Shown here: piece by piece, positions 434 through 5,964 of the stretch
Position numbering within the stretch: position 1 is the first letter of the stretch
How the letters are laid out: every line of letters starts with the position of its first letter
From: Candidatus Mediterraneibacter intestinavium
GTDB lineage: Bacteria > Bacillota > Clostridia > Lachnospirales > Lachnospiraceae
Reading direction: 5' to 3'
DNA length: 50,918 nucleotides
Assembly (NCBI GenBank): GCA_019119205.1
Contig: DWXK01000069.1
Coordinates: 1-50,918, forward strand
Position numbers and translations under genes: made by a program
The notes under the pieces: generated by a model
Database searches by the model: none
Told to the model about the DNA's origin: nothing
The model's input: only the letters and a program-made list of their open reading frames with translations

Positions 434-961
434 TCATTCTTCTTCCGGATACTCCACACCCTCCGGAAGCGGATCCCATTCGTTGAGTCCGAGTCTCTGT
501 TTGAATTTCGCCTGTTCCAGCGTCAGATGCGGCGGATCCTCCGCAAGGTAGTCCATCAGTTCATCAACACCTTCGCGGGTCACATTATTTACCATGAAGA
601 TGCGCTCACATCCTGCATTGACCAGCCACTGTCTGACCATCGGGATGTTTGCGTACGGTGAATCGATCTTCGTGATGATACCGATCAGCGGGCGCTGGAT
701 AAAAGCTCTGCTGCTGTCACCAAAGAGATTAAACGGCTCATCTGCAGCCTGGACGATCGCCACCACATCAGCTTCAAAAGAAAAGCATGCAAGTCCCACA
801 CTGAAACGTTTGGATTCCGCATACTCTCCCGGTGAATCGATCGTATCTTCCTTGGAATAGGTATATTGCGTCTTTACATAGTGAAGTTCTTCTCCTTTCA
901 ACGCCTGTGTTAAAGAAGTTTTTCCAGCTTCACTCCTGCCCATCAGAAACATTTTTTTCAT
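434..961 (-). CDS. eutP: EutP/PduV-family small GTPase
   Basis: This is a 175-residue P-loop protein of the EutP/PduV family, Ras-like GTPases found in ethanolamine and propanediol microcompartment operons. Their exact job is unsettled: PduV is reported to associate with the outside of the compartment, and some EutP proteins show acetate-kinase-like activity. Visible motifs are the Walker A GRSEAGKT (8-15), a switch-II-like DSPGEY (42-47) and the guanine-specificity motif TKID (97-100). Length is typical for the family, with a short acidic tail. It is the last gene of a three-gene minus-strand operon, 22 bases behind a PduU/EutS-type shell gene. No ethanolamine or diol enzymes are present in the window. 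The start is the only ATG fitting the family N-terminus (MKKMFLMGRS). Confidence 0.9.
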   Translation of the reverse strand: MKKMFLMGRSEAGKTSLTQALKGEELHYVKTQYTYSKEDTIDSPGEYAESKRFSVGLACFSFEADVVAIVQAADEPFNLFGDSSRAFIQRPLIGIITKIDSPYANIPMVRQWLVNAGCERIFMVNNVTREGVDELMDYLAEDPPHLTLEQAKFKQRLGLNEWDPLPEGVEYPEEE

Positions 962-983
962 CTTATACCCTGCCTATGTATTT

Positions 984-1412
984 TCAGCTCCTGTGAATCT
1001 CACAGGTCTTGAATCCCAGTACCTGGTCGAAAAACCGCACCACTTCTTCCACTGCAGTCTGTACCTCAGCCAGTCCTCCCGTAAGGATTAAAGATCCGCA
1101 GAAACGGTCCATAAACCCGATCTCAACATGTGCGCTTTTCACCGCCACATCTGCAGCGACCACAACCGACTCCCAGGGCGTAAACCGGATCAGACCGATC
1201 GACTCTCCCGTATGGTCTTCTCCTTCATGAACACCGATATGTAACGCCAGATTCTGATATATACGTGCATCAGAAGGATTTATGACATGCGCAAGGCAGA
1301 CCTCTTTTCCCGGAACACGCACACGTGTCATACGCAGCTTTTTCCCTTTCAGATTCCGGTAATCGTCATGGAACAGTTTTTCCAGAAATTCTTCCTTCGT
1401 CATTTTCGCCAT
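984..1412 (-). CDS. Permuted BMC shell protein, PduU/EutS type (longer paralog)
   Basis: This 142-residue protein belongs to the circularly permuted BMC-domain shell proteins (EutS, PduU), which form hexameric tiles of bacterial microcompartments and often carry a small beta-barrel over the pore. The family pattern is clear: an N-terminal strand ending in PGKEVCLAHVI, then the shell core with ESIGLIRFTPWES, VVAADVAVKSAHVEIGFMDRF and SLILTGGLAEVQTAV. Compared with its neighbour at 1424-1789 it has about 20 extra N-terminal residues (MAKMTKEEFLEKLF...) that form an amphipathic-looking helix; in other systems such a helix can be an encapsulation or interaction peptide, which is inference here. 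It starts 11 bases behind the neighbouring shell gene and precedes eutP. The specific symbol (eutS or pduU) cannot be decided from sequence alone. Confidence 0.88.
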   Translation of the reverse strand: MAKMTKEEFLEKLFHDDYRNLKGKKLRMTRVRVPGKEVCLAHVINPSDARIYQNLALHIGVHEGEDHTGESIGLIRFTPWESVVVAADVAVKSAHVEIGFMDRFCGSLILTGGLAEVQTAVEEVVRFFDQVLGFKTCEIHRS

Positions 1413-1423
1413 GACAGCACTTC

Positions 1424-1789
1424 CTATCTTTTTGTAATGTTGCAGACTACATATCCAAGTGTATCACGGAAATAATCTACGATTTCCGTCAACGCAGAAG
1501 TAACATCTGAAATCTCTCCCGTGACGATCAGAGTTCCTGTAAAACGGTCCGCAAACCCCAGATAGACATTACCGCTCTTCACTGCGATATCAGATGCGAT
1601 CACCGCCGACTCCGGCGGAGTCATGTTCATGATCCCGATAGCCGATGCACTGTAATCCACCTGAGGGTTCAGTCCCAGTTTCTGATATATGATCGGAGCC
1701 GGGCCTCCCATTACATGTGCAAATGTGATCTCTTTTCCGGCTACTGTTTCCTGTACGATCCTAATCTGTTCTCCATGATCAACTGCCAT
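1424..1789 (-). CDS. eutS: Permuted BMC shell protein, EutS type
   Basis: This 121-residue permuted BMC-domain shell protein is close in length to EutS. Conserved pieces include TVAGKEITFAHVMGG, SAIGIMNMTPPES, AVIASDIAVKSGNVYLGFADRF and GTLIVTGEISDV, which match the EutS/PduU core. It would assemble as a hexameric shell tile. It is the first gene of the operon that continues into the second shell gene and eutP, and a strong promoter lies about 70 bases upstream. A GGGGGAT purine-rich site sits just ahead of the ATG. Having two permuted shell paralogs but no ordinary BMC-H, BMC-P or pathway enzyme suggests a satellite locus that serves a microcompartment encoded elsewhere. Confidence 0.88.
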   Translation of the reverse strand: MAVDHGEQIRIVQETVAGKEITFAHVMGGPAPIIYQKLGLNPQVDYSASAIGIMNMTPPESAVIASDIAVKSGNVYLGFADRFTGTLIVTGEISDVTSALTEIVDYFRDTLGYVVCNITKR

Positions 1790-3011: not shown

Positions 3012-3124
3012 TTGTATACTAAAAAACACGTTTTATGGACGTTAAAATAAATATCATCTATATAAAAGAGGCAGTCCCGGCGCAGCCTTCTGCCGTCTTG
3101 ATGTTCAACAGAGGAGATGTTCTT

Positions 3125-3484
3125 ATGGGCGAAAATGATATACTGGAGAAGATCAGAACATATATGAAACTGCAGAACTGGACGCTGTACCGGCTTGCCA
3201 AGGAATCCGAGATTCCTTACACTTCACTTCACAGCATGTTTGAGAAAAATACACAGCCTACGCTTCCCACACTGAGGAAGATATGCAGCGGGCTTGGTAT
3301 CAGCCTGAGTGATTTTTTTGCCGATGACCTGCATCCGGTCTCTCCAAACAAATATACGGAAGATGAACTTGAACTTCTGGAGATGTACCGTCATCTTTCT
3401 GCCAAAGACAAGAAACTCCTGCTGACACTATGCCGCCGTCTTCCGCCCCTTTGCAGAGACGGAAAAGACGACAAAAACATCTGA
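3125..3484 (+). CDS. XRE-family helix-turn-helix regulator
   Basis: A 119-residue DNA-binding protein. The N-terminal half is a Cro/C1-type five-helix domain (about 5-65): ILEKIRTYMKLQNWTLYRLA, then ESEIPYTSLHSMFEKN and PTLPTLRKICSGLGISLSDFF. The C-terminal part (ELELLEMYRHLSAKDKKLLLTL) is a short helix pair typical of small XRE regulators. The start at 3125 is preferred because GAGGAGATG lies 8-10 bases upstream; the frame is open back to 3035 without a ribosome site. The gene ends 24 bases before the 7-TM kinase-like gene and is co-directional with it and the LytTR regulator, so it is probably the first gene of that operon and may control it. Confidence 0.88.
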   Translation: MGENDILEKIRTYMKLQNWTLYRLAKESEIPYTSLHSMFEKNTQPTLPTLRKICSGLGISLSDFFADDLHPVSPNKYTEDELELLEMYRHLSAKDKKLLLTLCRRLPPLCRDGKDDKNI

Positions 3485-3508: not shown

Positions 3509-4396
3509 ATGTATCGGGTTTTCTGTCTTATCTTGATCGAGATCGTGCTTTTCGGATCCTCTTATCTTTCATGCGGGATCTTCCTTGAATCCAGAAATTT
3601 TAAAAGGGGACAGCGTGCATCCATGCTGTTTCTCCTTTTTCTGTGCCTGATTGCCTTCGGCTGGGTCTTTCCAGATCTGCTGTATGATAAAGTTGCTTTT
3701 TTCACTCCGATCCTTCTCGTCCTTCCATGCGGGATCTTTTATCTCGGAAGTTTTCTTGAAAAACTGTCCGTGATCCTGATTCTCTATCTCGCTTCGCTCG
3801 GCGCGGATGTAGCTGCCGCTACAGCGTCATTTTATATCGAGTATTTCATAAAGGGGGAGACGGTATCCGGTAATCTGCTTCCGTCAGCGCCGGTGCACAC
3901 GCTTTTTACATATATTGTTCTTCTGTCCACAGCCCTGCTGTCCATACATTTTTTCATCTTCCCGAATATCAGGCGCTATATGACCGTATTCCGCAGGAAA
4001 TTATTTTTCCGGCTGACACTCCCGTTCATCCTGATATACATTGCTTCTAACCTCTTTCTTTCCTTAATAAATGTATCTTCAGTACCACTTTTTTTCACTG
4101 CTGCCGCAGGATTTGCTGTCATTATCGCTGTCCTGGTGAAACTGGCGCTCCGCAGCGTCCGTTTCTTTATGAAAAAAGGACAGGAACGGGACCTACTTCT
4201 TATCGAGCAGGAACAGTTCGATCAGCAGAGAGCTTCCTCCGAGATGCTGTATGACGAATACAAAAGACTCCGGCGCATCAGCCACGATATTTCCGGGCAC
4301 TATCTTTCACTCTCCAGTCTGATGGACAATGAAAAGTGGCAGGAGACAGAAAACTACATACAAAAACTTTTTGAAAAAAAGGAGTCTTCAACATGA
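3509..4396 (+). CDS. 7-TM sensor protein with intact His phospho-acceptor helix but no ATPase domain
   Basis: A 295-residue membrane protein built like the front half of an AgrC/ComD-type sensor kinase. Roughly seven hydrophobic segments occupy residues 3-214. A charged helix and a dimerisation/phospho-acceptor motif RRISHDISGHYLS follow, with the acceptor His at residue 259 (codon 4283-4285). It then has the family helix DNEKWQETENYIQKL and stops at residue 295. The N-, G1- and G2-box GHKL ATPase domain that normally follows is missing. This is not a frameshift: the next gene begins with its own membrane segments and overlaps by 4 bases (ATGA). The ribosome site is AAGGGGGG. Alone it could not autophosphorylate, so I infer it is the phospho-acceptor and sensing half of a two-protein kinase with the next gene product. 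Confidence 0.82.
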   Translation: MYRVFCLILIEIVLFGSSYLSCGIFLESRNFKRGQRASMLFLLFLCLIAFGWVFPDLLYDKVAFFTPILLVLPCGIFYLGSFLEKLSVILILYLASLGADVAAATASFYIEYFIKGETVSGNLLPSAPVHTLFTYIVLLSTALLSIHFFIFPNIRRYMTVFRRKLFFRLTLPFILIYIASNLFLSLINVSSVPLFFTAAAGFAVIIAVLVKLALRSVRFFMKKGQERDLLLIEQEQFDQQRASSEMLYDEYKRLRRISHDISGHYLSLSSLMDNEKWQETENYIQKLFEKKESST

Positions 4397-5241
4397 AATA
4401 TCGTGTGATATTCCTGATCGATCTTCTCATTTTCCCAATAACAGCCTGCCTCCTCGTGTCTGTTTTTATATCCGCAGACGGAGATAAGATCCCTTACCTC
4501 GCTCTGAATGGGATCTTAACCTTTTCCATCCTCCTTTCACTGGTCCTGTTCTATCTTGCACTCGGCTGGACCGTATCATCGCTGGAAGCTGAAAAGAAAA
4601 GGGAACTGTTAGAGCAGCATCGCGAGATCCTGCGCATACGCGACAGAGAGATCAAAGAACTGAGCAGCAGGTCCTCTGACAAACTACAGGATTTTTATGT
4701 CCACCTTGCCCGTCTGGAAAGTCATATCAGCAGAAAGGAATACCCAGAAGCAAAAGCATACATAGAACAGCTTTCCAGACAATACCTCCCCGGAAATCCA
4801 TCCCGTTTCTGTTTCGATCCCTTTCTGAACACCCTTTTGTCAGTCAAGGCGGAAGAAGCAGAGAAAAACCATATTCAGACAGACTTCCAGATCTTTCTCC
4901 CTCCGGTAAACAGCTTCGGCCGTCTGGATCCGCCGGAATTGTCAAGCATTCTTTTAAACCTACTGGATAACGGGATTGAAGGATGTCAGGATTCCGGATC
5001 TGCTCAGCCATTCCTCCGGCTGGAACTTTCCTGCAGATCCGGTATCCTGCGGATCCGCATGGAAAACAGTAAGAATCCTGCTGTTACTTTCACCGGAACA
5101 ACCACAAAGTCCAACAGAAGTTTTCACGGATTTGGTCTGAAGATCATTGAACAGATTGTGAAAGACCACCGTGGAGAGTGCATATGGCGTGACAAGGGCA
5201 CCTGCTTTGAATCACAGCTGATACTCAACACAAATGTTTAA
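4393..5241 (+). CDS. 2-TM GHKL ATPase-domain kinase with Gln at the phospho-His position
   Basis: This 282-residue protein has two membrane segments (about 5-27 and 36-60), a cytoplasmic helix, a DHp-like region and a GHKL ATPase domain. The N box is ILLNLLDNGIEGC (186-198) and the G box HGFGLKIIEQI (245-255). Aligned without gaps to its upstream neighbour, KLQDFYVHLARLESHI places Gln99 exactly where the acceptor His should be; in both proteins the aromatic residue of the following (W/Y)-x-E-x-x-x-Y-I helix is 18 residues further on. So the ATPase half looks intact and the acceptor is lost. The gene overlaps the upstream gene by 4 bases, which couples translation, and is followed 21 bases later by the response regulator. 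A second His (104) matches the non-catalytic second His of the HDxxxH motif. Confidence 0.85.
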   Translation: MKYRVIFLIDLLIFPITACLLVSVFISADGDKIPYLALNGILTFSILLSLVLFYLALGWTVSSLEAEKKRELLEQHREILRIRDREIKELSSRSSDKLQDFYVHLARLESHISRKEYPEAKAYIEQLSRQYLPGNPSRFCFDPFLNTLLSVKAEEAEKNHIQTDFQIFLPPVNSFGRLDPPELSSILLNLLDNGIEGCQDSGSAQPFLRLELSCRSGILRIRMENSKNPAVTFTGTTTKSNRSFHGFGLKIIEQIVKDHRGECIWRDKGTCFESQLILNTNV

Positions 5242-5262
5242 CTGTAAAGGAGTATGATAAAT

Positions 5263-5964
5263 ATGATCCATACAGCAATACTTGAAGATAATCCGGTCCA
5301 CAGAGACAGGCTTAAAAAAATTCTCGAAGATATCTATGGAAATGCTTTCTCTGTTTCGCTTTTTTCGTCTGGAGAGGAATTTATCCGCGCACTGAGATCT
5401 TTCAATCCTCAGTTTGATATCGCCTTTATCGACATTGAACTCGGTCAGGATTCCGGGATAAAAGTCTCCGAACAGGCTAACACAGTCTGTCCACGTATGC
5501 AGATCATCTATACCAGCCAGTATCTGGATTATGTCAGTCCGGTCTATGACACTGTACATACATATTTCATCTACAAACCTGAACTGGAAACCTATCTTCA
5601 GCCGGCGGTCGAGAAGGCACTCCGGACACTGAAAAAAATTGACGAGCGTATCCTGACTGTCTCATGGAATCGGGAAGATTTTCATATTCGCGAAAAAGAT
5701 ATCATCTATATGGAACGCACCCTGCGCACCACCACTATCTATACTGCAAGCAGTCAGTTCCTTACTTCAAAAAAACTTTCAGATATCATCACTGACCTGG
5801 GTGAGAATTTTGTCATGTGCCAGAGAAGTTTTATCGTGAACCTGGAATATGTGTCAGCATACCACACTTCACAGCTTTTCCTGTCCAACGGGAAGACGGT
5901 TCCGGTGAGCCGTTCCCATTTTAAAGAGGTACGTGAACGGGTAGAGCAATTCCTCTTTCAGTGA
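5263..5964 (+). CDS. LytTR-family response regulator (AgrA/ComE type)
   Basis: A 233-residue response regulator. The receiver domain (1 to about 118) has the acidic pair E8-D9, phospho-acceptor D57 in FIDIELG, T84 and K105, all the residues needed for phosphorylation. The C-terminal LytTR DNA-binding domain (about 130-232) includes KDIIYMERTLRTTTIYT, FVMCQRSFIVNLEYVS and LSNGKTVPVSRSHFKEV. The start at 5263 is chosen because AAAGGAG ends at 5252, ten bases ahead; the ATG at 5254 is only one base from that site. As the last gene of the cassette it is the expected partner of the two half-kinases. Related regulators bind paired direct repeats. No AgrB/AgrD peptide genes are nearby, so the signal is unknown. 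Confidence 0.9.
   Translation: MIHTAILEDNPVHRDRLKKILEDIYGNAFSVSLFSSGEEFIRALRSFNPQFDIAFIDIELGQDSGIKVSEQANTVCPRMQIIYTSQYLDYVSPVYDTVHTYFIYKPELETYLQPAVEKALRTLKKIDERILTVSWNREDFHIREKDIIYMERTLRTTTIYTASSQFLTSKKLSDIITDLGENFVMCQRSFIVNLEYVSAYHTSQLFLSNGKTVPVSRSHFKEVRERVEQFLFQ

Follow-up and report, generated by a model that had tools for sequence, protein, structure and literature searches.

A membrane receptor without an ATPase domain and a kinase without an acceptor histidine probably form one AgrC-type sensor kinase in Lachnospiraceae

Two adjacent genes of Candidatus Mediterraneibacter intestinavium, here called A and B, appear to encode complementary halves of a histidine kinase. We consider it probable that their products form a heterodimer acting as one AgrC-type (GHKL/HATPase_c_5) kinase, with B phosphorylating A in trans and A passing the phosphate to the regulator encoded beside them. 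Sensor kinases are usually regarded as pairs of identical chains, each complete with acceptor and catalytic part; A and B look like a natural version of the point-mutant experiment, each chain being without what the other keeps. We favor the heterodimer because of the complementary losses, their association across genomes, a natural A-B fusion, a common helical register, the helix positions in AlphaFold2 models, the fold match of B to AgrC, the selection acting on such genes, and the precedent of FasB/FasC. The window, that is, the whole stretch of DNA analyzed (50,918 nucleotides of contig DWXK01000069.1), carries the following features of this locus:

3509..4396, plus strand: gene A, 295 aa; a receptor with seven transmembrane segments (TMs), a linker helix and a complete two-helix DHp, without an ATPase domain
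4283..4285, plus strand: codon of His259 of A, the predicted phospho-acceptor (from sequence and alignments)
4393..4396, plus strand: ATGA stop/start overlap of A with B (from sequence)
4393..5241, plus strand: gene B, 282 aa; two TMs, a linker helix, a pseudo-DHp and a GHKL (HATPase_c_5) catalytic domain
4687..4689, plus strand: codon of Gln99 of B, at the acceptor position of the pseudo-DHp (from sequence)
4936..5226, plus strand: ATPase domain of B, residues 182-278 (Pfam PF14501, HATPase_c_5, 4.7e-13)
5254..5964 (alternative ATG at 5263), plus strand: LytTR response regulator, the putative partner of A and B (Pfam)

The hydropathy scan gave seven TMs for A and two for B. In A, His259 lies within SHDISGH, with 36 residues from it to the C terminus, and a Pfam search at E 1 returned no match, ATPase domains included. 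B scores 49.4 bits against HATPase_c_5 (cut-off 22), with an N box (NLLDN) at residues 189-193 and a G box (HGFGLKIIEQI) at residues 245-255; only GHKL ATPase domains were matched in it by Pfam, and no CheA-specific domain. The next aromatic landmark stands 18 residues downstream of the acceptor position in both proteins (W277 in A and Y117 in B). The regulator that follows matches Response_reg (PF00072, 1.8e-9) and LytTR (PF04397, 1.6e-18) and retains E11/D12, D60, S88 and K108, which we take to be its phosphorylation-site residues. A first-pass annotation, made from the letters alone, had already described the two topologies, His259, Gln99, the GHKL boxes, the aromatic spacing, the ATGA overlap, the open reading frames with their lengths and the regulator with its phosphorylation residues, and all of this held.

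The losses recur in the relatives of both proteins. In 16 aligned loci, the acceptor His, within an HD box followed by a second His at +5, is present in all 20 A proteins, none of which has an ATPase domain, and His259 is invariant across the A-protein alignments. The acceptor His is absent from all 17 aligned B proteins, whose acceptor column reads Q, Q, E, A, Q, N, Q, L, T, F, K, E, I, Q, K, K, K; three of them have a His at most four residues away. The first-pass annotation had proposed to examine whether His in A and Gln in B are conserved together: the His of A is, and the column of B varies and is never His. B proteins outside the alignment, inspected by eye with the exact column less sure, also have no His at the acceptor place; that of G730 has one three residues upstream. 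Of the 12 catalytic columns printed for B, eight (N189, N193, N225, T237, K239, H245, G246, and G248) are invariant in 17/17 proteins and presumably, by the GHKL fold, form the ATP site, while the other four vary.

By comparing 17 A with 15 B sequences in a profile-profile alignment, we found that TM7, linker and DHp of A align on TM2, linker and pseudo-DHp of B over 100 columns (probability 95, E 3.7e-8), with H259 opposite Q99 and the interior gaps confined to the linker upstream; this reproduces the register that the first-pass annotation had set by eye. Here the per-column hydrophobic fraction of A correlates with that of B at 0.71 (14 matched pairs), and in 16 shifted registers (1 to 8 either way) the correlation does not exceed 0.20, which rules out a chance match of register. 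Column identity averages 0.37 for A against 0.20 for B, and the A-invariant Tyr(-8), His0, Asp1, His5, and Tyr24 are unconserved in B. The hydrophobic correlation and the column identities together suggest that B retains the core of the helical bundle and has lost its phosphotransfer face. AlphaFold2 models, built as single chains with 15 and 17 sequences, have mean pLDDT values of 83.8 (A) and 80.4 (B). That of A shows a single helix 192-273 followed by a helix 277-294, that of B a long helix 33-113. Counted from where the long helix begins, the acceptor position comes after 67 residues in A and 66 in B, and 14 residues remain from it to the helix end in each protein. The best fold matches of the B model in the PDB are the AgrC cytoplasmic kinase chimeras 6e52 and 6e95 (E about 1e-9); the B sequence finds nothing stronger than E 0.06 there, and the A model finds no match at E 0.001 or better.

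In an association sample of 72 loci, kinases without an acceptor His sit beside ATPase-less acceptor proteins. The sample consisted of four loci that head the hit lists but were known beforehand to be split (the window, G105, G270, and G243) and 68 regions from those lists, chosen before their acceptors were inspected and mostly by rank; the rank order was broken by passing over G179:C13, G093, G557, G022, and G667 and by taking in G379 from further down. The first four of the skipped rows, checked later, each have the His and no A-type neighbor. Of 76 frames with a catalytic domain, 75 were classed, and the one left over (L182) carries an HD box. In the raw table, an A-type neighbor accompanied eight and was missing from one of the kinases without the His, and accompanied two and was missing from 64 of those with it (Fisher p 2e-8). 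Two hand corrections were made: L191 has R-H-N and counts as a His kinase, and the neighbor in L195 is not A-type but a permease, as we take it to be by its sequence. After correction, an ATPase-less neighbor with an HD/HE acceptor stands beside 8/8 kinases without the His versus 1/67 with it, the p value above being that of the uncorrected table. These eight kinases span seven loci, of which the four named above were known before and three of those were in the search profile; the blind part of the test is 4/4 in three loci (G111, two kinases in G241, and G730). A second set of 13 loci, picked for short frames or an A-like match and hence not blind, gave an A-type neighbor for 5/5 kinases without and 0/8 with the His.

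The kinase partner is not always short. In G111 it is full length (439 aa) and lies between two A genes, and in G241 the neighbor of two full-length Gln kinases is a 148-aa acceptor protein containing RHEFTNQ. The sole His kinase with an A-type neighbor is in G394 (L159 2963-5161), where an intact His kinase is followed by an ATPase-less acceptor protein; an A-type protein therefore does not always imply a partner without the His. This locus may be an intermediate in which the ATPase domain of A is already gone and the His of its partner is still present. Separately, G505 has a 284-aa kinase that keeps its His between a 159-aa membrane protein and, by eye, an AgrB-like protein (L143 3416-5381), perhaps another kind of sensor/kinase split.

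Among 58 genomes of the window's genus, relatives of B (37-41% identity) and of A (31-32%) co-occur in G327, G305, and G348; the other matches are weaker and mostly full-length kinases, and none is a close relative of A or B in single-gene form. A profile search with A over 61 relatives returned only the window locus and G348 at E 1e-12. In these three genomes and in the window the set is flanked by an ssb-type gene (SSB by Pfam in the window) and by what we take to be a typA-type gene; G105, of another genus, has the same A, B and regulator at a different place, and the four-base ATGA overlap occurs in 5/5 loci compared (these four and G105). Scanning named genomes with a regulator profile gave 13 loci, and in 13/13 A and B stand beside the regulator homolog and are split. 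They include G348, G305 (Candidatus Mediterraneibacter excrementigallinarum), G327, G105, and G243 (Anaerostipes sp. MSJ-23), and the other eight come from seven Blautia genomes, among them B. wexlerae, B. massiliensis, An249, and MSJ-9. When 64 Blautia-group genomes were searched with the fused A-B protein described below, 12 matched, of which 11 have A and B and one (G909) has a full-length His kinase.

With the window, G327, G305, G348, G105, the Anaerostipes locus, eight Blautia loci and four more of the Blautia group (L251-L254), the core comprises 18 loci, and nine distant split pairs (G270, G119, G223, G183, G449, G303, G111, G241, and G730) bring the total to 27, a recurrence that is not what chance would give. 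A adjoins B in 18/18 core loci regardless of gene order; the orders found are A-B-RR, RR-A-B, RR-B-A, A-RR-B, and B-A-RR-A (RR, response regulator), and the flanking genes vary from locus to locus. Neither a separate A with an ATPase domain nor a B with an acceptor His, either of which would have refuted the reading of the first-pass annotation, occurs in these 18 loci, with 17 B proteins aligned and the rest judged by eye. The arrangement extends well beyond a local pair; it is conserved and, as judged by these sequence tests, functional. In G303, of the window's genus, L152 3089-5601 holds a second, divergent RR-B-A split system (E 6e-10 to the B of the window).

One natural fusion joins the halves. 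The sole example comes from one metagenome assembly, that of an uncultured Blautia (CAMBAL010000011.1), where a 653-aa A-B fusion frame (L122 8518-10479) lies downstream of a separate A-B pair. The frame begins like A (RKWNHDVENH) and, past a linker, goes on as B, including the TM region, the pseudo-DHp and the ATPase domain (HATPase_c_5, 6e-19). It is 55% identical to the neighboring A and 57% to the neighboring B. The gene numbers are often uneven, with more receptors than kinases: counted over the fetched stretches rather than whole genomes, A genes outnumber B genes in 8/27 loci (G327, G105, An249, Candidatus Blautia intestinigallinarum, G270, G223, G449, and G111), and B genes outnumber A genes in one (G241). 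G105 has one A copy with an internal stop, and Candidatus Blautia intestinigallinarum, where the A:B ratio is 3:2, has one that lacks the HD box; without these two defective copies, the excess of A is found in 6/27 loci. In loci with two A genes, linker and DHp are more alike (0.52-0.96) than the sensors (0.35-0.75) in all seven loci with comparable copies. A single kinase shared by receptors for different signals would produce such a pattern, though the difference may be usual among ordinary kinase paralogs too. An A-type copy with its membrane part kept and the HD stretch missing lies at L118 7549-8313.

In the mechanism that we propose, A would be the receptor and phospho-acceptor subunit and B the ATP-binding catalytic subunit, anchored in the membrane beside A. 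TM7, linker and DHp of A and TM2, linker and pseudo-DHp of B, homologous and of matching length, would pack into a parallel heterodimeric four-helix bundle. On a signal, presumably a ligand sensed by A, the ATPase domain of B would phosphorylate His259 of A in trans, and the Asp of the neighboring LytTR regulator would receive the phosphate from the DHp of A. The acceptor His of B would be useless in such a split arrangement and would have been lost, and the ATPase domain of A likewise; the heterodimer may be obligate, as the first-pass annotation had suggested. With sensing and catalysis on different subunits, a single B could serve several A receptors.

Split kinases as such are already known, and A and B fit their general pattern of an acceptor without an ATPase and an ATPase without an acceptor; what stands out here is the unexpected breadth of the family, the natural fusion and the uneven ratio of receptors to kinases. 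The sole close case among split or heterodimeric kinases and AgrC in trans, in a literature search that covered subscription journals thinly, is FasB/FasC of group A Streptococcus (S. pyogenes), whose ComE-like regulator we take to be of the LytTR family. As described in 2025, FasB and FasC form a functional heterodimer in which FasC needs only its TMs and DHp and FasB only its DHp and ATPase domain, so that FasC 1-286 and FasB 216-448 suffice and His246 of FasC is required (PMC12675982). The comparison is one of architecture, based on that published description: in both cases two adjacent sensor-kinase-like membrane proteins go with such a regulator, the same trio as in our 13 regulator-profile loci, but FasB and FasC each keep six TMs, a DHp and a HATPase, and the DHp of FasB still has His residues (PMC12675982), whereas A has no HATPase and B has two TMs and no acceptor His. 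Unlike in FasB/FasC, the domains themselves are gone from A and B, so the complementarity of the window's pair is fixed in sequence. The accessible sections of the Fas report mention neither multiple receptors per kinase nor an A-B fusion (PMC12675982). The first-pass annotation named no family with this arrangement, and no description of the A/B family was found in the literature searched, but FasB/FasC is a precedent for the idea.

Other relatives in function are more distant. AgrC of Staphylococcus and related GHKL receptor kinases share with A and B a polytopic receptor, an HD-type acceptor box, a HATPase_c_5-type domain and a LytTR regulator. AgrC autophosphorylates in trans, as the first-pass annotation had noted, and is a single-polypeptide homodimer according to PMC10482373, whereas here the sensor and HD box are in A and the ATPase in B. 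CheA3 and CheA4 of Rhodobacter sphaeroides divide acceptor and catalysis between two proteins, neither of which autophosphorylates alone, and a SMART count gives 1556 of 42417 HisKA proteins without HATPase (PMC3591291). These are chemotaxis CheA proteins of a different domain class, however, with a P1 acceptor and with CheA3 lacking the dimerization and catalytic domains (PMC3591291), whereas A and B are both membrane proteins with homologous DHp-type helices. Hik36 and Hik43 of Synechocystis split a CheA over two genes with two-hybrid support (PMC7656254), and differ from A/B in their CheA-type domains and in genes that lie apart (slr0073 and slr0322). ChrS, a truncated pseudokinase that modulates its relative HrrS, illustrates another use of an ATPase-less kinase (PMC9491836).

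The data that fit the heterodimer also fit an arrangement in which B homodimers, formed through the pseudo-DHp, phosphorylate A homodimers distinct from them, within a complex that is transient or of higher order, in the manner of CheA4 on CheA3; the chemistry would be the same and the quaternary structure different. Such an assembly would agree with the hydrophobic bundle core retained in the pseudo-DHp of B, with the uneven A:B ratio in 9/27 loci, and with the CheA3/CheA4 pair, which works with its two parts on separate proteins (PMC3591291). But the matching helix lengths, the register and the fusion favor a joint bundle, compatible though they are with homodimers, and in the two-hybrid assay FasB paired with FasC while neither protein paired with itself (PMC12675982); we regard separate homodimers as rather unlikely. 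It is also conceivable that A is charged mainly by another, intact kinase, with B an accessory ATPase or phosphatase that tunes A, and the genome does encode full-length His kinases whose catalytic domain is related (e.g., G000:C93:47769-48554). This seems very improbable against the eight invariant ATP-site residues of B, its adjacency to A in every core locus and the existence of the fusion.

As to selection, dN/dS values (NG86) among B. wexlerae, G916, and Blautia MSJ-9 were 0.17-0.23 for A, 0.12-0.22 for B, and 0.10-0.15 for the regulator. A and B are thus under purifying selection, as measured in these three Blautia-group species. That A and B are decaying pieces of a broken kinase gene can be rejected: single A copies are defective in G105 and Candidatus Blautia intestinigallinarum, but intact split pairs at about 30% (A) and 40% (B) identity exist in other species, dN/dS in Blautia is 0.12-0.23, and one gene cut in two could not give both proteins, since their DHp-type regions overlap in homology.

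Returning to the heterodimer of A and B, only one phosphorylation per dimer would be possible, which would make the pair a natural system for studying trans phosphorylation, asymmetry and stoichiometry in AgrC-type kinases. It also suggests how gut commensals, Blautia wexlerae and B. massiliensis for example, could multiply their sensors without duplicating the kinase. We put forward more tentatively, with somewhat less than even confidence, that AgrC-type receptors of Lachnospiraceae have split more than once into swappable modules, in which several ATPase-less receptors dock on one catalytic subunit and compete for it or are exchanged, gene order is free and the halves can fuse again. If true, such several-receptors/one-kinase logic would be closer to chemoreceptor/CheA or cytokine-receptor signaling than to a classic two-component system. 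Automatic annotation would probably label the halves as an unrelated "hypothetical protein" and a "GHKL domain protein."

A tree of 97 catalytic domains places 19 core B domains in one supported set (97). Over all rows it has eight state changes versus a shuffled mean of 25.3, of which the well-supported branches force only at least two; the tree is a quick one in which many forks are undecided and long branches (G119 and G730) are unsure, so it gives no fixed count of origins. A single origin of all His-less kinases was rejected.

Around the locus, a Cro/C1-type HTH gene (3035-3484) ends 25 bases 5' of A and may be cotranscribed with it; no such gene was seen directly 5' of A in the frame listings of G327, G305, G348, and G105. 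Nearby on the minus strand, window positions 434-1789 encode a PduV/EutP GTPase and two BMC-domain shell proteins by Pfam, possibly part of a microcompartment operon.
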